Source: Nonomuraea polychroma
GTDB taxonomy: Bacteria > Actinomycetota > Actinomycetes > Streptosporangiales > Streptosporangiaceae
Assembly (NCBI RefSeq): GCF_004011505.1
Contig: NZ_SAUN01000001.1
Location: 2,356,001 to 2,420,000 of the forward strand
DNA: 64,000 nucleotides
Reading direction: 5' to 3'
Shown here: positions 2 through 11,801 of the stretch, one piece after another
Position numbering within the stretch: the first letter of the stretch is position 1
How the letters are laid out: every line of letters begins with the position of its first letter
The notes under the pieces: model-generated
Told to the model about the DNA's origin: nothing
The model's input: the letters and a program-made list of their open reading frames with translations, nothing else
The model's database searches: none
Made by a program: the position numbers and the translations under genes

Positions 2-400
2 GAGGCCGGTCGGATCGTCCGTCCATCACAGGGGCCTAGCCTCCCGCCTGAAGTGACAGAAGCGGTCGACCGGCTCCGCCAGGACCTTGAACGCTCCCCG
101 TTCCAGGCCCCCGAGGCGTCCCGTCTGGCGCAACTGCGGCTGACCGGCAGGACCTTGGCCGCCGCGGCCCGGGCGGGAGCGGTGCTCCGCATCGCCGACA
201 CGGTCGTGCTGTTGCCGGAGGCCGAAGCGGAGGCGGTGCGGATCCTCGGCGAGCTGCGCCAGCCGTTCACAGCCAGTGAGGCAAGGAGAGCGCTCGACAC
301 CAGCCGTCGGGTGGTCATCCCGTTCCTGGAGTTTCTTGATCAACGAGGACACACCGTTCGTGTGGACGGTAACTCGAGACGGCTCAAAATCAATAAGTAG
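2..400 (+). CDS. selB: Selenocysteine-specific translation elongation factor SelB, C-terminal part (5' end outside window)
   Basis: The frame is open from the window edge and ends at TAG 400, so this is the last ~132 codons of a longer gene. The C-terminal residues (QPFTASEARRALDTSRRVVI, then FLEFLDQRG and a basic tail) match the final winged-helix domain of SelB, which binds the SECIS hairpin of selenoprotein mRNAs while the missing N-terminal GTPase carries Sec-tRNA. A GTG at 53 is an internal codon, not a start. The neighbour immediately downstream is a tRNA-Sec-like gene, which supports the assignment. Whether the GTPase part is intact cannot be seen. Confidence 0.85.
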   Translation, partial: EAGRIVRPSQGPSLPPEVTEAVDRLRQDLERSPFQAPEASRLAQLRLTGRTLAAAARAGAVLRIADTVVLLPEAEAEAVRILGELRQPFTASEARRALDTSRRVVIPFLEFLDQRGHTVRVDGNSRRLKINK

Positions 401-485: not shown

Positions 486-578
486 GGAGACGTTTAGGTG
501 TCTGGTGGCCCTCACGGTCTACAAAACCGATGGGCGGCGTGATGCGTCGCCGGCGGGTTCGATTCCCGTCCGTCTCCG
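486..578 (+). tRNA. selC: tRNA-Sec-like gene with anticodon ACA
   Basis: The RNA has the oversized shape peculiar to tRNA-Sec: acceptor GGAGACG (486-492) pairs with CGTCTCC (571-577), the T arm is GCGGG/CCCGT around loop TTCGATT, and there is a long 7-bp variable arm (533-539 with 545-551). The 7-nt anticodon loop is CTACAAA (519-525), giving ACA where bacterial tRNA-Sec normally has CTTCAAA (UCA). Weak points: the eighth acceptor pair is T493/C570, the D stem holds one T/C mismatch, and the anticodon stem needs a bulged or mismatched A530. CCA is not encoded (GCTA follows). It could be a recoded tRNA-Sec reading UGU or a decaying copy; position next to selB argues that it descends from the real selC. 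Confidence 0.8.
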
Positions 579-584
579 CTAAAT

Positions 585-614
585 GGAGGCCCCGCACGGC
601 GGGGCCTCCTTTTT
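585..614 (+). terminator. Intrinsic terminator after the tRNA
   Basis: A perfect 11-bp stem (GGAGGCCCCGC with GCGGGGCCTCC) closes a 3-nt loop and is followed directly by five T residues (610-614). It starts 7 bp after the tRNA and is the clearest rho-independent terminator in the window; it separates the selenium genes from the accessory block. Confidence 0.95.
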
Positions 615-1383: not shown

Positions 1384-2106
1384 GTGAGCGAACCTCAACG
1401 TCCCCTCAAACCCCTCGTCGAGAACGAGCAGAGCGCGGCGCTCTCGTCTGCGGAGGTTGTGAAGGGTCACGAAGCGGCGTGGGGAGGCGAGGGTAACCTC
1501 TACCCGATCCGTCCTTACACGCTGACGTCGGCCTCGCTCGAGGCCTTCACCGTGCGGGAGCGCATCCACGTCCGGGTCGAAGGGCTCGGCGAGGACATCG
1601 TCGACTTGCACGGCATGGCGGTCTACCGTCGGCACGACCCCAAGGCCGCCGACGGCCAGCCGCTCACCTGGGCGAACTCCACCATCACCGCGCAGTTCCT
1701 GGCCCTCCAGGTGACCGGGCACAGCGAAGTGTTCGGTCAGGTCCGGGTGTCGAACTCACCGGGAAAGGCGGAGGGAGCACGGGTCAAGCCGAGCCCGCCG
1801 CCGGAAGATCACGGCATACAACCGATCAAGGACTGTATCACCATGCTCTATCCTCGGTTCGAGGTTGAAGAGCTGGGCACCACCATCGACACCGGCAGCA
1901 AGATCGTTCGGCTGGAGTCGCGGGTTGCGATGGTTCCCCCCATCGGGGACGTGTCGCGGACGTCGCAGAGCTACACGCTCTTCGACCCTGAAGGCCGTCA
2001 GGTCGGCGAGCTCATCGCCGCGGACATCGAGATCGGCTCGCTGATCCACCATGTGCCGATCCAGAGCGCGGTGATTCCGGCCGACCTCGCCGAAGTGCTC
2101 GCATAG
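1384..2106 (+). CDS. Uncharacterised 240-aa protein
   Basis: No family recognised. A GTG start at 1384 is preceded by CGAAAGG at suitable spacing. The protein has no signal peptide or membrane span and is rich in beta-type segments (for example RIHVRVEGLGEDIVDLHGM and ESRVAMVPPIGD), suggesting a beta-sandwich or lipocalin-like fold; this is inference. It lies between unknown genes 894 and 2117, 10 bp from the latter, and is probably co-transcribed with them and with the downstream kinase-like gene. Confidence 0.75.
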   Translation: MSEPQRPLKPLVENEQSAALSSAEVVKGHEAAWGGEGNLYPIRPYTLTSASLEAFTVRERIHVRVEGLGEDIVDLHGMAVYRRHDPKAADGQPLTWANSTITAQFLALQVTGHSEVFGQVRVSNSPGKAEGARVKPSPPPEDHGIQPIKDCITMLYPRFEVEELGTTIDTGSKIVRLESRVAMVPPIGDVSRTSQSYTLFDPEGRQVGELIAADIEIGSLIHHVPIQSAVIPADLAEVLA

Positions 2107-2862: not shown

Positions 2863-4140
2863 ATGCGATTCCGGACTGCCCCGTTCCTGGTGGCACGTGC
2901 CTTCCGCATCGTGCTCTGGACGGTTCTCGCGATGGCTCGGGTCGTGCTCGTCCTCGCGCTGCCGTCGCGGCGGACGCGGGCCGAGCGCGTCGCGTCCGAG
3001 GTCGTGCGGCTGGCCGAGAAATTGCAAGGCGCCTTCATCAAGGTAGGGCAACTCCTCGGCACGCGGGCCGATCTGGTGGGGACGACGATGGCACGAGCGC
3101 TGGGTGCCTTGCAGGACGACGTCACGCCCATGCGCGCGGTTCACGCGCGGCGAGCGGCAGAGCGCGCGCTCGGGCCGCTGCCCGGGGAACTGGCCCGAGC
3201 GCTGGGCGGCCGACCCGTCGCGAGCGGATCCATCGCCTGCGTCTACCGTGCCGAGCTGGATGGTCTCGCGGTGGCCGTCAAAGTGCGCCGCCCCGGGATC
3301 GAGCGTGCCATGTCAGCCGACATCGGGATCGTCAAGGCTCTGATGCGGGTGCTCGGCAGGCTCCCGCCGCTGCTGCGAGTGCCGCTCGACGACATCGCGG
3401 AGCAGCTGGGGGAATGCCTGATCCGCCAGTTTGACCTGGTCTCGGAGCGGGTCCACCTTGAACGTCTTCGCCGGGACCTCGCGGATCTTCCTGAGGTCGT
3501 GGTACCGGCGACCGTTCCGGAATGGTGCGGCGACGGTGTCATCACCATGGAATTCATCGATGGACTCGACCGCACGATGACCGACCGCCTGCCGGCCACG
3601 GTTCGCGAGACGGGAATGGCGGTGCTGGTCCGGGCCGTGTACCGGATGCTCTTCCTGCATGGCTTCATCCACGTCGACCTGCACCAGGGCAACGCGTACA
3701 TCAGACGGGACGGCTCGGTGATTGTGCTGGACGCCGGGTTCACCTACCAGATGACCCCTGACGCGCGGCTGAAGTTCACCGAGTTCTTCGCGGGCATGGT
3801 GCAGGGGCGTGGCGACGAATGTGCCGAGATCTTGTTGTCCACGGTTCGTAAGGTCGCATCCGGCGCTGATGTCGCGGGATTCAGGCGCGACGTCTCCGAG
3901 CTGATCGCCCGCAGTGCGGGATTGGTGGCCGACCGCTTCAGCCTCTCCTCCTTCTCCGTGGAGCTGTTCGACCTCCAGCGCCGGCACGGCCATTTCGCCG
4001 ACCCCCAGTTCGTCTTTCCGTTGCTGTGCCTGCTCGCCGTGGAAGGTGCGGTCAAACGACACCATCCACTTATGGATTTTCAACTGGAAGCGGCGCCGTA
4101 CCTCATGCACGGCCTATTGACAGAGCCGTCCCTCGACTGA
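2863..4140 (+). CDS. UbiB/AarF/ABC1-family atypical kinase
   Basis: Family hallmarks are in order: KVGQLLGTRADL (KxGQ motif, ~residues 65-76), ASGSIACVYRAEL (Ala-rich loop in place of the P-loop), VAVKVRRPG (ATP lysine), MEFIDG, HVDLHQGN (in place of HADPHPGN) and VLDAGF (in place of DFG). An N-terminal hydrophobic stretch (~11-35) may anchor it to the membrane. UbiB relatives regulate isoprenoid, quinone or lipid pathways through ATPase activity. The DAG and HVDLHQGN variants keep the metal-binding Asp and the Asn but depart from consensus. It closes the 894-4140 operon; its stop codon abuts the next ACTATAT element. Confidence 0.85.
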   Translation: MRFRTAPFLVARAFRIVLWTVLAMARVVLVLALPSRRTRAERVASEVVRLAEKLQGAFIKVGQLLGTRADLVGTTMARALGALQDDVTPMRAVHARRAAERALGPLPGELARALGGRPVASGSIACVYRAELDGLAVAVKVRRPGIERAMSADIGIVKALMRVLGRLPPLLRVPLDDIAEQLGECLIRQFDLVSERVHLERLRRDLADLPEVVVPATVPEWCGDGVITMEFIDGLDRTMTDRLPATVRETGMAVLVRAVYRMLFLHGFIHVDLHQGNAYIRRDGSVIVLDAGFTYQMTPDARLKFTEFFAGMVQGRGDECAEILLSTVRKVASGADVAGFRRDVSELIARSAGLVADRFSLSSFSVELFDLQRRHGHFADPQFVFPLLCLLAVEGAVKRHHPLMDFQLEAAPYLMHGLLTEPSLD

Positions 4141-4159: not shown

Positions 4160-4254
4160 CCGTTTGATCATGTTTGACCGGTACGTCACCTGACAGGCCG
4201 TCCGGGCGATGTCACGCCCGGCCCGACGTGTCGCGGATCACCAAGGAGATCACC

Positions 4255-5484
4255 GTGCGACAGTGCCTGAACGAACGGCAGCGAGGCTTCCTGAGCCTCG
4301 CCGAAAAGGTCGCCCCCGCGCTGACCGAACGCGCTGTCAAGAACGACCGGGACAACGTCTTCCCTTACGACAACTACGCCGACCTCCGCGCGGCCGGGCT
4401 GATGCGGCTGACGGTGCCGGAAACCCTCGGAGGGCTGGGCGCCGAGCAGGGAGAGATGTTGCTGGTCCTGGAACGGCTGGCACAGGCCGACGGCGCGACG
4501 GCATTGGCCTACGCCATGCACGCGGCGCCGCTCGGCTCTTGGGCCGCCGTATGGCGGCAGACCGGAAACCCCATGCTGGAGCATGTTCTCGGGATCGCCG
4601 GTCGCGATGGTCTCGTGCTGGCGGCCATCTCCAGCGAGATCGGCGTCTCCAATCTGTTCCTCGACGCCCGTACCAAGGCCGAGCGGGTCCCCGGCGGCTT
4701 CCTCATCAACGGGAGGAAGAACTTCGCCACGAACAGCGCGGTCGCCACTCACTGCGCGACGACGGCACACTATGACGACCCCGAACTGGGCCCGCGGTTG
4801 TTCGTGGTCTTCGTCGACATGTCGGACCCGGCGGTGACCGTTCACCAGACCTGGGACACGCTCGGCATGCGGGCCACCCAGAGCAACGACGTGGTCTTCG
4901 AGGACCTGTTCGTGCCCGAACAGGCAGTGGTGCAGTCGGTACCGATCGGCCACTTCGACGCCGGGATCCTGGAGACGATCATCTGCTGGCAGGCCCCCTC
5001 GTTCGGCGCGGTGTACACCGGAGTCGCGGCCGCCGGCCTGGAGTGGGTGATCGACGTGGTACGGCGCCGCGGGTTGACCAGGGACACGCGGGTGCAGGAC
5101 GCCATCGCCGATTGCGAGATCCTCCTCGAGATCAACCGCAGTGTGCTGCACCGGCACGCGGAGGAGTTCGTCAGCAGGCGGCTGGTCGAGCAGCTCGGGG
5201 TGCAGGAGGGTCTGGCCCGCTGCGCCTTCGTCAAGAACACCTGCACGAACAACGCAGTCGCGATCTACCGCCGCCTCGTGGACGTATTGGGTGGCGCCGC
5301 GTATACCCGCACCCAGCCCTTCGAGCGCTTGTGGCGGGATGTCCAGGCCGGGCTCATCATGCCGATCTCCAATCTCATGGCCAACGAGCTCATCGGCGCC
5401 ACCGCGCTCGGCGTCTCCGTACGTCCCGTCGCGGGCGCGGACGCCGCCGGACCCGCACTCGCCACGACGGGAAGTGCCGGCTGA
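4255..5484 (+). CDS. Acyl-CoA dehydrogenase family flavoprotein
   Basis: The 409-aa protein has the three-part ACAD layout: N-terminal helices with LRAAGLMRLTVPETLGGLGA, the central FAD/substrate sheet (ISSEIGVSN, GGFLINGRKNFATNSAVATH, DTLGMRATQSNDVVFEDLFV) and the C-terminal helical domain (DVLGGAAYTRTQPFERLWRD). It should catalyse FAD-dependent alpha,beta-desaturation of an acyl thioester, or, like related ACAD-fold enzymes, flavin monooxygenation. GTG at 4255 was chosen because AAGGAG lies 6-7 bp upstream; a TTG at 4174 also lies in frame but lacks an RBS and would consume the leader. It opens the transporter operon and overlaps the next gene by one base. Confidence 0.88.
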   Translation: MRQCLNERQRGFLSLAEKVAPALTERAVKNDRDNVFPYDNYADLRAAGLMRLTVPETLGGLGAEQGEMLLVLERLAQADGATALAYAMHAAPLGSWAAVWRQTGNPMLEHVLGIAGRDGLVLAAISSEIGVSNLFLDARTKAERVPGGFLINGRKNFATNSAVATHCATTAHYDDPELGPRLFVVFVDMSDPAVTVHQTWDTLGMRATQSNDVVFEDLFVPEQAVVQSVPIGHFDAGILETIICWQAPSFGAVYTGVAAAGLEWVIDVVRRRGLTRDTRVQDAIADCEILLEINRSVLHRHAEEFVSRRLVEQLGVQEGLARCAFVKNTCTNNAVAIYRRLVDVLGGAAYTRTQPFERLWRDVQAGLIMPISNLMANELIGATALGVSVRPVAGADAAGPALATTGSAG

Positions 5485-6380
5485 TGCGACTCCCCAAAGC
5501 CGCGCTCCTGCTGGTGTCGGCCGTGCTCGTCATGACCGGCGGCTGCGGCGCCCAGCGGACCGCCGACGAACCCCTCCACGTCGGCGTCATCCCCAACATC
5601 TCGCCCGACCAGCAGCGCGCCCACTACGAGCCGTTCCGTGCCTATCTCGAGGGCCGGCTCCAGCGGAAGGTGGAGTTGTTCGTCGCCGCGGACTACGCCG
5701 GCGTGGTGACCGCCCTCACGGCCAAGAAGATCGACCTGGCCTATCTCGGCGGTCTCTCCTACGTGCAGGCACGGGAAAAGTCCGCGGTCACACCGCTGGT
5801 GTCCGAGGTCGACCAGGAGACGGGCACTCCTGAGTACCTGGCCGCCATCGTGGTCCCGAAGGATTCCTCCGCGCGCTCGGTCCGGGACGTGGTCGCTCGT
5901 GGCAGCCGCTTCGCCTTCGGCGACGTCAGCTCGACCTCGGGCAGCCTGTACCCGCGCGCGATGATCGTCGAGGCTGGGGCCCGCTGCGAACCGGGCGACC
6001 TGACCCGGTGTCCGCCGCTGAAGAGCGTGCGGTTCACCGGGGGCCATGACGCCACAGCCCGGGCCGTCTTGTCGGGCAGTGTGGACGCCGGAGGGATCGA
6101 GCTGCGCATCCTCCACCGCCTCGAGCGCCAGGGGACGGTCCCCAAGGGAGGCTTGCGGGTCGTCGGCACCCACAAGGTCATGGGGTACCCGTGGGTCGCC
6201 CGGGAGGGTTTGGACGGCAACATCCGCTCCGCCATCACGGACGCCTTCCTGGCGATCAAGGATGCGAAGCTGCTCGACCTGCTACGCGCCAAAGCGTACG
6301 TCCGTGTGTCGGGCGTGCATTACGCCGACGTGCGAACCAAGGCGGCGGAACTCGGGCTGCTCGCCGAACAGGGCAGGTAA
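5484..6380 (+). CDS. PhnD-like ABC transporter substrate-binding lipoprotein
   Basis: The start overlaps the previous stop (TGATG). Residues 1-21 form a lipoprotein signal with lipobox TGGC. The mature part follows the PhnD/phosphonate-binding fold: VGVIPNISPDQQRAHYEPF, DYAGVVTALTAKKIDLAYLGG, FAFGDVSSTSGSLYPRAM, VLSGSVDAGG. PhnD relatives bind phosphonates, phosphite or other small oxyanions. With the next two genes this makes a complete importer. No phosphonate-degrading C-P lyase genes are nearby, so the true substrate is open. Confidence 0.85.
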   Translation: MRLPKAALLLVSAVLVMTGGCGAQRTADEPLHVGVIPNISPDQQRAHYEPFRAYLEGRLQRKVELFVAADYAGVVTALTAKKIDLAYLGGLSYVQAREKSAVTPLVSEVDQETGTPEYLAAIVVPKDSSARSVRDVVARGSRFAFGDVSSTSGSLYPRAMIVEAGARCEPGDLTRCPPLKSVRFTGGHDATARAVLSGSVDAGGIELRILHRLERQGTVPKGGLRVVGTHKVMGYPWVAREGLDGNIRSAITDAFLAIKDAKLLDLLRAKAYVRVSGVHYADVRTKAAELGLLAEQGR

Positions 6381-6390
6381 TGGGGCTGCT

Positions 6391-7134
6391 ATGCGAATCG
6401 AACTGGCGGACGTCACGGTGCGCTTCGGTGACCAGACAGTGCTCGAGGACATTCACCTGACCGTGGCGGCGGGTGAACGGGTCGCCCTGCTCGGCCCGTC
6501 TGGAGCCGGTAAGACGACGCTCCTCAGAGTGATCGTCGGCGCCGTCCCGCCCGTCACCGGGTGGATCCGGGTCGACGGACTCGATCCCTTCGGATCCAGG
6601 TCCGAAGTGACCGCGCTGCGCCGATCCATCGGCTGCGTACGCCAGCGAGATGATCTCGTCCCCGGAATGACCGCCAGAACCAACATCCTGGCGGCGGCTG
6701 CCTACCAGTGGCGTCTGATCGACTGGCTCACGGTGCTGCGCGGAGCCGTGCCCCGCCGCTACGTCCGCCGTCTGACCGAGCTGGCCCGCCGGCACGAGAT
6801 CGAGCAGCTGCTCCCTGCCAGTGTGGAGCGGCTCTCCGGAGGGCAACGGCAGCGCGTGGCACTGGTCCGGGCCCTGCTGACGGAGCCTCTCCTCCTGCTT
6901 GCCGACGAGGCGACATCTGGTCTCGACCCGGTCCGTGCGGCGGAGGTCATCGAACACCTGCTGCAAACCGAGGCCACCGTGGTGGCCACGACACACGACC
7001 TGGCCGTGGCCTCCTGCTTCGAACGCGTCGTGGCGCTCCGCCACGGCCGCGTGGTGTTCGACGGCGCCGTACCCGAAGCAGATGACCTCAGCCGGATCTA
7101 CGGCAGAGCTCTCGTGGCGGAGCGGGTGACATGA
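6391..7134 (+). CDS. PhnC-like ABC transporter ATP-binding protein
   Basis: A 247-aa ATPase with Walker A GPSGAGKTT, signature LSGGQRQRVALVRAL, Walker B LLLLADEATSGLD and switch His in TTHDL. The central insertion (YQWRLIDWLTVLRGAVPRR) is characteristic of the PhnC branch. It is the cytoplasmic motor for the 5484/7131 importer; its TGA overlaps the permease ATG by 4 bp. Confidence 0.88.
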   Translation: MRIELADVTVRFGDQTVLEDIHLTVAAGERVALLGPSGAGKTTLLRVIVGAVPPVTGWIRVDGLDPFGSRSEVTALRRSIGCVRQRDDLVPGMTARTNILAAAAYQWRLIDWLTVLRGAVPRRYVRRLTELARRHEIEQLLPASVERLSGGQRQRVALVRALLTEPLLLLADEATSGLDPVRAAEVIEHLLQTEATVVATTHDLAVASCFERVVALRHGRVVFDGAVPEADDLSRIYGRALVAERVT

Positions 7135-7967
7135 TGACCGAGCTTCCCCCGCGGCGGCGCGCGCTCCGCTGGACTTTAGCCATCGGCGCGGCCGTCATGG
7201 CGGGCTGGGCCATCAGCGGCACAGGCGTAGGGCCGGCGTCCCTCCTGGCCGGCAGGGAAGGCGCCGCCGACATCATCTCCGGGCTCTTTCCACCGGACCT
7301 CGACGGCGATCTGCTGTCACGCGTCGCCGTCGCGGCGCTGGAAACAGTGCAGATCTCAGTAGCGGCCATGGTGTTGAGCATGGCGATAGGCCTGCCCTTG
7401 GCGCTGCTGATCGCCGCCAATGTCGAGGCGCCACGATGGATATCCGGAGTCGCCCGGGGAACCGCCACGCTCCTGCGCAGCGTGCACGAGCTCCTCTGGG
7501 CGCTGCTGTTCGTGGCCGCGGTAGGGCTCGGGCCGGCCGCCGGTGTCTATGCGATCGGCCTTCACTCGGCAGGTGTGGTGGCCAAGCTCTGTTCGGAGCA
7601 GCTCGAGGCCGTCGACCGCGCGCCCGTGGAAACGATGAAACTGACCGGCGGCTCTCGCCTGACGTGCGCGCTGCTGGGAATTCTGCCTCAGGCCCGGGCC
7701 AACATCGCCTCCCAGCTCCTCTACCAATGGGAGTGCGCGATCAGAAGCTCGATCGTCATCGGCTTCGTCGGAGCCGGCGGCATCGGGCAGGCGCTGGCCA
7801 TCGCGCTCCGCCTGTTCCGCTATCAGGAGCTGGCGACCCTCATCGCTGCCGTCGCGATCCTCGTCGTGTGCGTGGACCGCATGTCCAAGTCCCTCCGGGG
7901 TCGCCTGGGCGCGACGACGCGCTGGATGGCGCCGGTTCGACCGTCCTATGAAAGGAGCACGCCGTGA
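7131..7967 (+). CDS. PhnE-like ABC transporter permease
   Basis: A 278-aa integral membrane protein with about six hydrophobic spans and the PhnE-type coupling region (APVETMKLTGGSRLTCALLG, then GFVGAGGIGQAL). It overlaps its neighbours on both sides by 4 bp, so the ABC unit and the following DsrE gene are translationally coupled. Together with 5484 and 6391 it completes a PhnCDE-type importer. Confidence 0.87.
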   Translation: MMTELPPRRRALRWTLAIGAAVMAGWAISGTGVGPASLLAGREGAADIISGLFPPDLDGDLLSRVAVAALETVQISVAAMVLSMAIGLPLALLIAANVEAPRWISGVARGTATLLRSVHELLWALLFVAAVGLGPAAGVYAIGLHSAGVVAKLCSEQLEAVDRAPVETMKLTGGSRLTCALLGILPQARANIASQLLYQWECAIRSSIVIGFVGAGGIGQALAIALRLFRYQELATLIAAVAILVVCVDRMSKSLRGRLGATTRWMAPVRPSYERSTP

Positions 7968-8314
7968 AAGTCCTGTTCGTCCTGCATGACCCTCCTTACG
8001 GCACCGAGCGAACCTACAACGGCATCCGGTGGGCGCGCACCCTGCTCGACGAGGAGGAGAACGAGGTCAAGGTCTTCCTCTTCGGGGACGCCGTCGTTTC
8101 CGTGATGGCGGACCAGCGCACGCCCAACGGCTACTACAACGTCGGCTCGATGATCCGCACTCTGATCGACCGAGGGGCCGAGGTCGGGAGCTGCGGCACC
8201 TGCCTGGATGCCCGAGGCATCGACGAGTCCCGCGCGGCCAAGGGGCCCCATCGGTCATCCATGAAAGAGCTGTCCGGTTGGACGGCCTGGGCGGACAAGG
8301 TGATCAACGTTTGA
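7964..8314 (+). CDS. DsrE/TusD-family small protein
   Basis: A 116-aa single-domain protein: VLFVLHDPPYG (first strand, nucleotide-like loop), KVFLFGDAV, and GSCGTCLDARG carrying two cysteines at the position of the conserved DsrE/TusD cysteine. The family relays persulfide sulfur or acts with sulfur oxidoreductases. GTG 7964 has AAAGGAG six bases upstream. It is wedged between the PhnE-like permease and an SQR-like flavoprotein, a pairing common in sulfur metabolism, so persulfide handling is a reasonable inference. Confidence 0.85.
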   Translation: MKVLFVLHDPPYGTERTYNGIRWARTLLDEEENEVKVFLFGDAVVSVMADQRTPNGYYNVGSMIRTLIDRGAEVGSCGTCLDARGIDESRAAKGPHRSSMKELSGWTAWADKVINV

Positions 8315-8327
8315 TCCGGGAGGGTCC

Positions 8328-9485
8328 ATGCCTCGCAATGTTGTCGTCCTGGGTGCTGGAGTTGGCGGCCTGATCGCGGCGTCGCGGCTACGTGAGCTGC
8401 TGCCCCAGTCCGATCGTGTCGTCCTGGTCGATCGCTCGTTCGACGGGGCCCTCGGGCTGTCACTGCTGTGGGTCCTGCGGGGCTGGCGCACCGCCGAGTC
8501 GGTCAAAGTACGGCCGACGGAATCCGCGCTGCGCGGCGTTGAGATGCTGAAGGCGGAGGTTCAGGCCATCGACCTCGATCGCCGCTCGGTGGTCGTGGAA
8601 GGTGGCGAGCTGAGCTACGACGCGCTGGTCATCGCTTTGGGGGCGGCGCTCGATACGGGAAGCACGCCGGGATTGGACGCTGCGATCGCCGCCGGCGTCG
8701 CGACGGAGTTCTACACGCTGGAGGGAGCCGGCGCGACCCATGAGCGGGCACGGAAGCTGAACCACGGCCGAGTGGCGTTCCTAGTGGCAGGAGTGCCGTT
8801 CAAGTGCCCGGCGGCTCCGTTCGAGGCTGCCCTGCTCGCAGCCGACATGCTGCGCTCACGTGGCATCCCCGACCGGATCCAGATCGATGCCTTCACGCCC
8901 GACCCCCTGCCGATGCCTGTTGCCGGACCCGAAGTCGGCAAGGCCTTGGTGGGGATGCTCGAGCAACACAACATCGGATTCCACCCGAACAAGATGATCG
9001 ACCACATAGTGCCGGAGAGACGGCAACTGGTCTTCTCCGACGGCAGTCGCGAGACGTTCGAGCACCTCGCCGTCGTCCCGGCACATCGACCGCCGGCGCC
9101 CGTGGCCTCGAGTTTCGGTGGCTGGATCCCGGTGGACCCGCACACGCTCGTCAGCGAGGCCGACGGGGTCTGGGCCGTCGGCGACGTCACACTCCTGAAG
9201 CTCCCGAACGGCAAGCCGCTGCCCAAGGCGGCGGTCTTCGCGGAAGGCGAGGCGGAGACGGTCGCGATAGAGGTCGCACGTTTTCTGGGAATGGAGGGCC
9301 CCGATTCCTCTTTCTCGGGATACGGCTCGTGCTATATCGAGCTCGGCGGACACTGCGCCGCCAAAGGTGAGGGGCGGTTCTTCCACGAGCCGGCACCCGA
9401 GGTGACCCTCTATTCTCCCTCGCCCGACTTCCATCGGGAAAAGGTCGCGCAAGAAACCGACTGGCTCAAGCGATGGAATTCATGA
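8328..9485 (+). CDS. Sulfide:quinone reductase-like FAD oxidoreductase
   Basis: A 385-aa pyridine-nucleotide-disulfide-type protein: dinucleotide fold GAGVGGLIAASRLRELLP at the N terminus, a second glycine-poor middle domain, GVWAVGDVTLLKLPNGKPLPKA (FAD-binding 'GD' motif), and CPAAPFE near residue 162, the equivalent of the active-site cysteine segment CPPAPYE of SQR/flavocytochrome c sulfide dehydrogenase. RBS GGGAGGG precedes the ATG. The DsrE neighbour supports sulfide or persulfide chemistry; a quinone or another acceptor cannot be decided from sequence. Confidence 0.85.
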   Translation: MPRNVVVLGAGVGGLIAASRLRELLPQSDRVVLVDRSFDGALGLSLLWVLRGWRTAESVKVRPTESALRGVEMLKAEVQAIDLDRRSVVVEGGELSYDALVIALGAALDTGSTPGLDAAIAAGVATEFYTLEGAGATHERARKLNHGRVAFLVAGVPFKCPAAPFEAALLAADMLRSRGIPDRIQIDAFTPDPLPMPVAGPEVGKALVGMLEQHNIGFHPNKMIDHIVPERRQLVFSDGSRETFEHLAVVPAHRPPAPVASSFGGWIPVDPHTLVSEADGVWAVGDVTLLKLPNGKPLPKAAVFAEGEAETVAIEVARFLGMEGPDSSFSGYGSCYIELGGHCAAKGEGRFFHEPAPEVTLYSPSPDFHREKVAQETDWLKRWNS

Positions 9486-9495
9486 ATCGCCGAAA

Positions 9496-9513
9496 ACTAT
9501 ATGTAGCTCAAGC
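9496..9513 (+). promoter_or_regulatory. ACTATAT element, copy 3 (left half conserved)
   Basis: ACTATATGTAGCTCAAGC shares the left half ACTATAT with the other three copies; the right half is degenerate (CTCAAG against TTAAAG). It lies 52 bp before the ATG at 9548, in the short gap after the SQR-like gene, implying a separate transcription start. Confidence 0.45.
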
Positions 9514-9547
9514 ACACCACTAGAGATAGGTCGACAGAGGAGAGACC

Positions 9548-10099
9548 ATGCCCCACATCGCGATCCAACCCGAGATGGCGCCCGGCACGCCCGGCCTGTT
9601 CCAGTACCGGCCGGAGACGGGGCGCCCGCTCGCGGAGTTGGCCGAGACCCTGCTCCGCAACCCGCACTCGATGAGCCGGGCGGACCGGGAGCTCATCGCC
9701 ACCTACGTCTCGGCGCTGAACGAGTCCAAGTTCTGCTACTCGACACACCGGGAGGTCAGCGGCGCCCAGTACGACGAGGGCCGCCTGCTGGTCGACAAGG
9801 TCATGAACGACCCCGACAGCGCCCCGATCCCGGAGAAGCTCAAGAAGCTGTTGAAGATCGCCGGAGCGGTCCAGCGGAGCGGTAACGCGGTCACGGAGGA
9901 ACTCGTCACGGACGCCCGTAACGCGGGCGCGACGGACGTCGAGATCCACGACACCGTGCTCATCGCCGCGGCGTTCTGCATGTTCAACCGGTACTGCGAC
10001 GGTCTCGGCGCCTACACCCCCGAAGACCCCGAGGCCTACGTGGGCATGGCCGAGATGATCCTCAACGGCGGCTACCGGATGTGCGTCACAGGCCACTAG
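9548..10099 (+). CDS. AhpD/carboxymuconolactone decarboxylase-like protein
   Basis: The 183-aa all-helical protein carries NESKFCYSTHREV, the CMD/AhpD active-site segment. The second Cys and the His of the usual C-x2-C-x3-H are kept, while the first Cys is Ser; this form is common in peroxidase-related relatives. The end (AAFCMFNRYCDGLGAYTPED) also fits that branch. AGAGGAGAG is a strong RBS four bases before ATG 9548. Likely role: peroxide or thiol-linked reduction, or an uncharacterised lyase. A hairpin follows at 10111. Confidence 0.85.
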   Translation: MPHIAIQPEMAPGTPGLFQYRPETGRPLAELAETLLRNPHSMSRADRELIATYVSALNESKFCYSTHREVSGAQYDEGRLLVDKVMNDPDSAPIPEKLKKLLKIAGAVQRSGNAVTEELVTDARNAGATDVEIHDTVLIAAAFCMFNRYCDGLGAYTPEDPEAYVGMAEMILNGGYRMCVTGH

Positions 10100-10150: not shown

Positions 10151-10498
10151 ATGGGATCGGTGAACATGCGATACGTACTGCTCTATTGCGGCGGCGATGA
10201 TGCCGAGCCAATGAATGACGAGACCAGGGATCTCCTCGATCGGTGGTTCGCCAAATACCACTCCAACATCGTGCACAGCCGACGGCTGAAACCCGCGGAG
10301 ACCGCGACCACAGTCGACGTGAGCTTCAGCCCGGATCCCGTGATGTGGGACAGGCCGTTCGCCACGCCGGCGCTCAGCGGGTACATCGAGGTCGAGGCGG
10401 CCGACCTCGACGAGGTGCTGCGCATGGTGCGAACGTGGCCGGGCTCGCCGACCGTGGAGATCCGCCCGATCGTCAGCGCATCGACGCCATCGCCTTGA
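10151..10498 (+). CDS. YciI/DGPF-domain protein
   Basis: A 115-aa ferredoxin-like-fold protein: MRYVLLYCGGDDAEP at the N terminus and ALSGYIEVEAADLDEVLRMVRTWPGSPTVEIRPI at the C terminus match the YCII-related (DGPF) family, whose known members are small dimeric enzymes or sensors of unclear function. ATG 10166 is an equally possible start and gives the canonical N terminus MRYVLL. The 3' end overlaps the convergent PLP-enzyme gene by 26 bp. Confidence 0.8.
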   Translation: MGSVNMRYVLLYCGGDDAEPMNDETRDLLDRWFAKYHSNIVHSRRLKPAETATTVDVSFSPDPVMWDRPFATPALSGYIEVEAADLDEVLRMVRTWPGSPTVEIRPIVSASTPSP

Positions 10499-11801
10499 TC
10501 ACTCGCTCCACCTCGTCCGGACTGGTAACGATGCTCGGCCCGAACCGGACGAAGGACTCACGGTACGGCGTCGAACCCGCCGAGATCGCGTGCTTGGTGA
10601 GAAGCCGCTGGACGACGGCGTCCGGCTCCATGCCGTTGACCGCGCAGCAGATGACTCCGGCCGATAGCTCCGGAGACGTGGGCGTCACGAGACGGACGTT
10701 GGGCAGCTTGGCGAGCCCTTCCTTGAGCTGGACGGCTTGGGACCTGATCCGCTCCGCGACGGCCGCCTTGCCGATGGACTCGTGGAAGGCGACGGCCTGC
10801 GGTACGGCCCAGCGGTTCTCGAACGAGTGGTAGCCGCCCGGAGTATTGAGGTCGGCCGGCGGGCCGGGGGTTCCCGTCCAGGCCTGCCGGGAGAAACTCG
10901 GGATCACCGGTCGAAGCAACGGCCAAGCATCCGTTCTCGCCCAGACGAATCCGGTGCCTCGCGGGCCGAACAGCCACTTGTGCGTGGCCGTGATGAAGAC
11001 ATCGGCCCCCAAGTCGCTCATGGAGGCGTTCTCCGCGGCAAAACCGTGGACACCGTCGACCACGATCAGGACCCGTCGGCTCGGGCCGCGCCGGGCGTTG
11101 ATCTCCTTCACCGCCTGGCTGATCTGCGACAGCGGCAACTTGACGCCGGTGCTCGAGTGAACCCAGGTCAGGGCGAGCACCCTGGTCCTGGGGGTGATCC
11201 GGCGAACGAGCCTGTTCACGATCTCGTCGGCGGAGGCCGTGGCGGGATTCTCGTACAGCCGCACCCTGTGGATCACGATGCCGTCGGTCTCCGCGCGCAA
11301 CCGCAGCGCCTCGTGGCACGAGTAGAAGTCGTGCTCGGTGGTGATCACCTCTTCGCCGGCCTTCAACCGCAGGCCGCCATAGACCAGGCCGAGCCCCATG
11401 GTGGTGCTGTCGGTCAGCGCCACCTCCTGCGGCTGGGCCCCGATGTACCCGGCGATCGCCTTGCGCGTGTCGTCGCTGCGCTCCAGGTCGTAGAAGCCGA
11501 TCCCGTAGTCCTGAGGTCGGCTGTCCAGTGCGTCTCGGTACTGCGTGATGGCGTCCCGTACGGGAGCCGGATGCGCGGCCAGCATGAACGCGGCGAAGTG
11601 CGCGTAGCGCGAGGTGAGCGAGAACTGGGCACGGACCGAGCCCCAGTTCCGAGGGTCGAAGGCCGGGCCGGGCGCTCGCCGGGTGGCCTCCCCCGCGCAG
11701 CCCGCGGACATCGCGGCGACGCCGGCCATGAGGACGGCGCGTCGTCCCAAGCCTGCCGAAGCGTAGTCGAGGGGATTGCTCTGGATCTCCTGGTCTGCCA
11801 C
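10473..11801 (-). CDS. Exported class V aminotransferase / cysteine desulfurase-like PLP enzyme
   Basis: The 442-aa protein has the class V fold with the PLP lysine in TATHKWLFGPRGTGF, the cofactor Asp/His in VVDGVHGFA, and DSTTMGLG for phosphate binding; isopenicillin-N-epimerase-like and desulfurase-like enzymes share this pattern. Unusually, residues ~19-37 (LGRRAVLMAGVAAMSAGCAG) look like a twin-arginine lipoprotein signal, so the enzyme is probably exported. The start is GTG 11801 on the reverse strand; the promoter would lie in the divergent region around 11834. Reaction unknown: C-S lyase, epimerase or aminotransferase are all possible. Confidence 0.83.
   Translation of the reverse strand: MADQEIQSNPLDYASAGLGRRAVLMAGVAAMSAGCAGEATRRAPGPAFDPRNWGSVRAQFSLTSRYAHFAAFMLAAHPAPVRDAITQYRDALDSRPQDYGIGFYDLERSDDTRKAIAGYIGAQPQEVALTDSTTMGLGLVYGGLRLKAGEEVITTEHDFYSCHEALRLRAETDGIVIHRVRLYENPATASADEIVNRLVRRITPRTRVLALTWVHSSTGVKLPLSQISQAVKEINARRGPSRRVLIVVDGVHGFAAENASMSDLGADVFITATHKWLFGPRGTGFVWARTDAWPLLRPVIPSFSRQAWTGTPGPPADLNTPGGYHSFENRWAVPQAVAFHESIGKAAVAERIRSQAVQLKEGLAKLPNVRLVTPTSPELSAGVICCAVNGMEPDAVVQRLLTKHAISAGSTPYRESFVRFGPSIVTSPDEVERVIKAMASMR

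Follow-up and report, generated by a model that had tools for sequence, protein, structure and literature searches.

A tRNA-Sec gene with anticodon ACA and a predicted UGU target point to a dedicated sense-codon selenocysteine system beside the UGA system in Nonomuraea polychroma

The window, by which we mean the whole stretch of DNA analysed here (64,000 nucleotides) from the soil actinomycete Nonomuraea polychroma, begins within a selB gene, which is followed by a tRNA gene, a gene for a DUF6073 protein and a series of further genes on the same strand (Table 1). The tRNA is the only one that ARAGORN found in these 64 kb (486-579, forward strand), and the program labelled it Cys, with anticodon ACA. 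The gene is also matched by the Rfam tRNA-Sec model RF01852 along the whole model (486-577, model positions 1-91), with 68 bits against a gathering score of 47 and an E value of 9.7e-12. As read from the sequence, the anticodon loop is CTACAAA at 519-525, with A34 at position 521, and the codon predicted from this anticodon is UGU. A first-pass annotation of this DNA had described a tRNA-Sec with anticodon ACA adjoining selB, and both searches, together with the selB end at position 400, agree with it.

Table 1. Features of the locus, in window positions
Feature	Position	Strand	Basis or remark
selB2 3' end, SECIS-binding elongation factor	2..400	+	TIGR00475, 293 bits vs cut-off 242
tRNA-Sec, anticodon ACA (521-523), discriminator G578	486..577	+	Rfam RF01852 full-model match; ARAGORN
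Intrinsic-terminator-like GC-rich hairpin and T-run, 3' of tRNA	about 585..614	+	by eye from sequence
o147, 147 aa	894..1337	+	adjoins target in eight of eight sense-codon loci
DUF6073 protein, DynF-like beta-barrel, predicted Sec at residue 151	1384..2106	+	Pfam PF19550
UGU codon predicted to be read as Sec	1834..1836	+	gene's single Cys codon
SECIS-like hairpin GCUCU-AU-CCUCG-GUU-CGAGG-UUGA-AGAGC	1845..1873	+	apical loop starts 20 nt after codon
o247, 247 aa	2117..2860	+	conserved neighbour
ABC1/UbiB-like atypical kinase	2863..4140	+	conserved neighbour; PF03109, 153 bits
Acyl-CoA-dehydrogenase-like flavoprotein	4174..5484	+	conserved neighbour
Phosphonate-type ABC transporter (binding protein, ATPase, permease)	5484-6380, 6391-7134, 7131-7967	+	PF12974, PF00005, PF00528
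DsrE-like protein	7964-8314	+	
Sulfide:quinone-reductase-like flavoprotein	8328-9485	+	
AhpD/CMD-family protein	9548-10099	+	

The usual anticodon of tRNA-Sec is UCA, which reads UGA, and here ACA was found in its place. The gene stays within the tRNA-Sec family all the same, because exceptions to the usual anticodon are known. Identity as a tRNA-Cys was ruled out by the long variable arm and the full-length match to the tRNA-Sec model, and the Cys label given by ARAGORN derives from the anticodon. Imperfect stems had been noted earlier as a possible sign of decay. In the anticodon stem, the A514/A530 mismatch is real. In the acceptor, the eighth and ninth pairs are indeed non-standard, but the same odd pairs occur in a UCA tRNA-Sec of the same genome (L002), in an AUA gene (L113) and in another ACA gene (L087), and since other tRNA-Sec genes of the clade have this feature, it is by itself no sign of decay. 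The terminator previously noted after the tRNA was recognised again by eye as a terminator-like hairpin.

The tRNA is the last gene of a complete, intact selD-selA-selB-tRNA operon. Read from the full contig, selB2 is a complete gene of 586 aa (G000:C1:2354640-2356400, where G000 is the N. polychroma genome) that stops directly 5' of the tRNA, with selA2 and selD2 upstream; selD2, selA2 and selB2 lie in this order on one strand as open frames (L009, 2143-3246, 3258-4622 and 4640-6400). The operon gives matches to TIGR00476 and TIGR00475 above their cut-offs, and SelA2 was identified by its similarity to selA1 and by its SGDK motif.

Formate dehydrogenase had been named at first as the protein to examine. 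It was dropped as a UGU target, the Sec codon of fdhA being TGA, and the candidate is now the DUF6073 gene, whose codon lies 1.3 kb downstream. This gene, which belongs to DUF6073 by a profile match above the curated cut-off and by its DynF fold, is likely to be the target. In genome G014 the DUF6073 gene also has a single Cys codon, and it is likewise TGT. DUF6073 is present in 22 of 341 genomes of the family, which we sorted manually into 12 of a PIKD-site subtype, nine DynF-like and one very divergent. The codon at the site in the PIKD-site subtype is TGT in six, TAT in one and TGC in five, and Planomonospora, outside the 341-genome collection, is a seventh TGT case, with ACA. Loci with TGT or TAT are referred to below as sense-codon or Sec-type loci, and those with TGC as Cys-type loci; in the former, TGT accounts for 13 to 27% of the Cys codons by a rough ORF filter. 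The tree grouping of the Sec-type DUF6073 proteins is weakly supported (50/2).

When the codons in Cys columns were compared across the genes of the cluster, residue 151 of DUF6073 was the only position with TGT in the seven ACA genomes and TAT in genome G460. The columns considered had at least three Cys, or TAT beside a Cys, and matches below 40% identity were dropped; selD, selA, selB, o147, DUF6073, o247, UbiB, ACAD, PhnC, PhnE and AhpD were covered in at least four genomes. SQR was covered in two of them, whereas the comparison of PhnD (mis-set coordinates) and of PvdN was confined to the N. polychroma genome, and the DsrE-like gene was left out. Several other candidates were rejected. 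Cys31 of SelD is TGT in G000 and G460, but TGC in the other readable genomes, and for Cys80 of o247 two genomes have TGT and six have TGC. The TGA triplets that appeared to lie inside four DUF6073 matches are located just 5' of the gene start at those loci, away from the site.

As for the remaining neighbours, no family of Pfam or NCBIfam matched o147 at E values of up to 0.1, and orthologues of this protein are found in the seven other sense-codon loci and in three of the five Cys-type loci read. Relatives of the transporter ATPase and permease occur in the Herbidospora and G560 loci, and also near one Cys-type locus. It is possible that the DsrE-like, SQR-like and AhpD/CMD genes (7964..10099) are members of the same functional island; AhpD is also present at the G014, G560 and Herbidospora yilanensis loci, and an SQR-like flavoprotein at that of G460. 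Against the model for the type III sulfide quinone reductase, selenoprotein subtype, the flavoprotein of the window scores 163 bits, below the cut-off of 525, and its three Cys codons are all TGC. A PvdN-like class V aminotransferase gene (10473-11801, reverse strand; NF051467, 392 bits, below the cut-off of 650) lies beside the island, and in G631 a 60%-identical relative adjoins a Cys-type DUF6073 cluster.

The tRNA, the SelB lineage, the DUF6073 gene and several of the neighbours co-occur in eight genomes including that of N. polychroma, and the ACA anticodon is found in the tRNA-Sec of six further genomes of the family. In every one of the eight sense-codon loci the anticodon is complementary to the sense codon at the conserved Cys/Sec site: UGU with ACA in seven and UAU with AUA in one (G460). 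Among the 341 family genomes, the same seven carry a non-UCA tRNA-Sec, as found by an exact-pattern search, and a UGU/UAU-type DUF6073 gene; an eighth match of that search, in G674, turned out on manual reading to carry a normal UCA anticodon preceded by C at position 33. In the five Cys-type genomes the codon at the DUF6073 site is UGC, and their tRNA-Sec genes are all UCA. As related genomes are not independent, these counts are not to be taken as probabilities.

Genome G460 has a tRNA-Sec of 68.7 bits with anticodon AUA beside its DUF6073 gene, and the codon at the site is TAT. The order of its locus is selD, selA, selB, tRNA, o147, DUF6073, o247, UbiB-like, acyl-CoA-dehydrogenase-like and SQR-like. 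In the ACA loci read, the frames of selA, selB and selD are open, and their products are 58-74% identical to those of the window, with the qualification that the Planomonospora locus does not include selA and selD. In G460, selA2 appears to shift frame where seven C follow one another (L113 1429-1435), which is either a sequencing error or a real lesion. The SelD motif GAGCACK is kept in all six available sense-type sequences, and the SelA motif is SGDK in six of seven, the exception being H. yilanensis, which has SADK with the lysine retained. In a midpoint-rooted SelB tree, from which four duplicate loci were left out, the eight sense-codon loci fall on one side of a branch (support 100/99) relative to 13 UCA-associated SelB rows, and G000 (ACA) and G460 (AUA) are neighbours (97/94). 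From this placement of G460, the simplest history would be that ACA/UGU came first and that AUA/UAU is derived.

The N. polychroma genome, which is a single contig of 11.52 Mb, contains three tRNA-Sec genes above the Rfam cut-off, and two of them have UCA. One of these is found where selA1 begins, near selB1 and fdhA (L010), and fdhA has an in-frame TGA at L010:11838-11840 in the context ARV-U-HGPTVVSLA (translated by eye). SelB2 and SelB1 of this genome share 56-60% identity. Among the TIGR01591 matches listed, those with an internal TGA came from G000, where the TGA of fdhA is counted, and from G014 and G460, and none came from G560 or from the three Herbidospora genomes. Of the seven sense-codon genomes searched, six (those of the three Herbidospora, G014, G460 and G000) have a UCA tRNA-Sec as well as the sense-type one, and in G560 the ACA gene was the only tRNA-Sec found in our tRNA-Sec search of 17 genomes. 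The first-pass annotation had held that a UCA tRNA-Sec elsewhere in the genome, accompanied by TGA selenoprotein genes, would refute UGU recoding. Such a set is present, with two UCA genes and fdhA, but it does not refute the recoding, because the two systems are parallel: the organism has a normal UGA system plus the ACA system. The other UCA tRNA-Sec of this genome (L011 6549-7339) is near a truncated selB remnant with two stops, which has the appearance of true decay at that place. A tRNA-Sec(UCA) of G020 (L051 6643-7442) is likewise near a truncated selB remnant, and two or three tRNA-Sec genes were present in eight of 59 genomes examined.

This bears on the alternative of decay, under which the ACA tRNA-Sec would be a degenerating or mutated gene copy and the DUF6073 residue would be normal cysteine. 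The genome does have three tRNA-Sec genes, one of them near a truly broken selB, and the ACA gene has lost one anticodon-stem pair. Moreover, the ACA genomes alone would be compatible with plain Cys, because UGU is also a Cys codon, and the predicted distinction between Sec and plain Cys rests on one UAU genome, the G460 draft (83% complete, 840 contigs), which is the sole UAU case. We nevertheless consider decay very improbable, because the ACA anticodon, the operon and the target gene recur in other genomes; ACA is present in seven genomes, whose selA, selB and selD are open frames wherever the loci read include them, it belongs to the only tRNA-Sec found in G560, and the UAU/AUA swap of G460 argues against decay as well.

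According to the excerpted part of a review (PMC10778597), the apical loop of bacterial SECIS elements lies 16-37 nt after the codon, and the 20 nt of the predicted hairpin fall within this range. Its upper stem and loop, CCUCG-GUU-CGAGG, are invariant in all eight Sec-type genes, always with the loop 20 nt past the codon, and below the upper stem there is one bulged base and then a set of four positions, of which three are paired in G000 and all four in the other genes. Seven Sec-type genes have U as the bulged base; G460 has C, which it shares with the Cys-type genes. In the UGC genes the upper stem is broken in five of five, with two or three of five pairs left, and three of four lower pairs are kept. 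The string T-R-T, 15 bases and CCTCGGTTCGAGG, in register, was found exactly once per genome in the seven sense-codon genomes searched, and five Cys-type genomes lacked it. With the spacing freed to 12-20, TGT with the same stem gave one extra match each in G000 and G014, and the reversed control gave one.

Folding of the 53-nt stretch of the window that contains the hairpin gave -16.8 kcal/mol and a z-score of -1.76. The z-scores of the other stretches against shuffles were -2.06 for G460, -0.15 for G014, which is thus no better than its shuffles, 0.53 for the Cys-type locus L108 and -0.98 for fdhA, where three of the five stretches (L113, L057 and L108) began 2 to 9 bases 5' of the codon. 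When the 12 codons after the site were recoded synonymously, the native hairpin had only a moderate advantage: P ranges from 0.003 to 0.145 in the eight Sec-type genes and from 0.014 to 0.678 in five Cys-type genes, of which the one with 0.014 had another fold. A scan of synonymous difference in six Sec-type rows, two near-identical Herbidospora having been dropped, placed the ten-codon window that starts at the site lowest of 196 (0.051 vs 0.315 overall), and the window one codon later fifth (0.139). In the Cys-type genes, the window one codon past the site ranked 23 of 184, with a synonymous change of 0.175, which is below average. In an RNAalifold analysis of five rows, none of the pairs showed a change of both partners, and such changes are not to be expected because the stem hardly varies.

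Taken together, these observations make it highly probable, in our opinion, that a sense codon is recoded to Sec in a SECIS-dependent manner by a system dedicated to one codon and working beside the UGA system, and they strongly support the UGU recoding suggested at first. It also seems quite likely that the cell has two parallel Sec codes, of which the second would be kept for one codon of one gene, and that this codon moved from UGU to UAU together with its anticodon. In such a scheme, SerRS would charge tRNA-Sec(ACA) with serine, SelD2 would provide selenophosphate, and SelA2 would convert Ser to Sec on the tRNA. SelB2 would then bind the hairpin at 1845-1873 and deliver Sec-tRNA(ACA) to the ribosome at the UGU at 1834-1836 of the DUF6073 mRNA, where it would outcompete Cys-tRNA, and UGU codons elsewhere, having no hairpin, would remain Cys. 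A separate SelA1/SelB1/tRNA-Sec(UCA) set would serve UGA in fdhA, giving two Sec codons in the cell; the SelA, SelB, tRNA and SECIS of the sense-codon system are probably a set apart from that of UGA.

Cys-tRNA must compete at UGU. One may therefore imagine that the UGU of DUF6073 yields a mixture of Sec and Cys set by the selenium supply, with Cys as a fail-safe. This idea, which overlaps with dedicated recoding to Sec, would fit the Cys (UGC) found at the site in five relatives, but the UAU of G460 would make Tyr the fail-safe residue, and we regard such ambiguous decoding as a tentative possibility. Scarcely credible to us is that the second system loads a residue other than Sec, or that the tRNA is a non-ribosomal aminoacyl donor for the neighbouring pathway. 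The separate lineage of SelA and SelB and the neighbours with sulfur-type annotations (DsrE, SQR-like) could be read in this way, but the operon includes a SelD with its GAGCACK motif kept, and a role at the ribosome is indicated by the nature of SelB, an elongation factor, and by the way in which the codon follows the anticodon.

A second code of this kind, with its codon shift from UGU to UAU, would, if true, amount to a natural and heritable change in the meaning of a sense codon at one addressed site. The comparative series of UGU, UAU and UGC, together with two codes in one cell, suggests how a single occurrence of a sense codon can be addressed with the rest of the proteome left untouched, and how codon and anticodon can migrate jointly; the series also makes codon competition testable in matched species. 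DUF6073 is, moreover, a selenoprotein candidate invisible to UGA-based searches, which miss it because the gene is without an in-frame stop. In the literature searched, we found nothing joining selenocysteine with Herbidospora, nothing naming DUF6073 and nothing joining Nonomuraea with tRNASec.

Two more tRNA-Sec genes with anticodon ACA were observed elsewhere. A marginal one in Desulfallas sp. Bu1-1 (L079 1175-1267, 47.2 bits vs a cut-off of 47) lies directly 5' of a Sulf_transp (PF04143) gene and is possibly a separate case of UGU-Sec. A strong one (L083 2379-2466, 75.4 bits) is on a 3.4-kb contig of a Planctomycetota MAG, in which no sel gene was recognised by eye among the ORFs and no match to SelA2, SelB2 or SelD2 was found.

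Sense-codon recoding to Sec, with UGU in Aeromonas salmonicida, was reportedly described by Mukai et al. in 2016, and UAU may be among their ten sense codons. Reviews, in the excerpts at hand, give Sec at UAG, at UAA and at ten sense codons including UGU in A. salmonicida (PMC10778597, PMC8124441), and the excerpts of two other papers (PMC7609411, PMC5756416) refer to sense-codon tRNA-Sec only by citing the 2016 paper. Sense-codon Sec as such is thus already established; the dual-code cell, the UGU-to-UAU swap and the target family appear new within the literature searched.

One close comparison is the canonical UGA set of the same genome (selA1-selB1-tRNA-Sec(UCA)-fdhA), which has the same gene set and a tRNA of the same family. 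The fdhA hairpin resembles that of the G014 DUF6073 gene, with a single bulged base below a stem of 4-5 bp and a 3-nt loop. In contrast, SelB1 and SelB2 group apart, and the codon is TGA in fdhA and TGT in DUF6073. DynF (PDB 6ubl), a fatty-acid-binding beta-barrel of the dynemicin pathway encoded in an enediyne cluster, as excerpted from PMC8725005, shares family and fold with the DUF6073 protein of the window; however, DynF has Cys at the aligned position, and the two are 18% identical over 181 aligned residues. In Geodermatophilaceae, the excerpt of PMC5330540 describes UAG-Sec with a CUA tRNA-Sec and with FDH, AhpC and a UGSC-motif protein as targets, which is similar in that an actinobacterial non-UCA tRNA-Sec has a matching codon, but there a stop codon is involved, and here sense codons and DUF6073. 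A tRNA-Sec-like match with anticodon CUA (UAG) that we saw in another family of the same class (L178, G428:C6:102873-102937) resembles these known UAG-Sec actinobacteria. The UGU-Sec of A. salmonicida, as far as the excerpted sources describe it, is alike in its sense-codon tRNA-Sec anticodon, its SECIS dependence and its use of SelA, SelB and SelD. It differs in that the sense system described here stands beside a UCA tRNA-Sec in all but one of the seven genomes searched, and in that we see here one found codon, a different protein family and a switch from UGU to UAU in one lineage.
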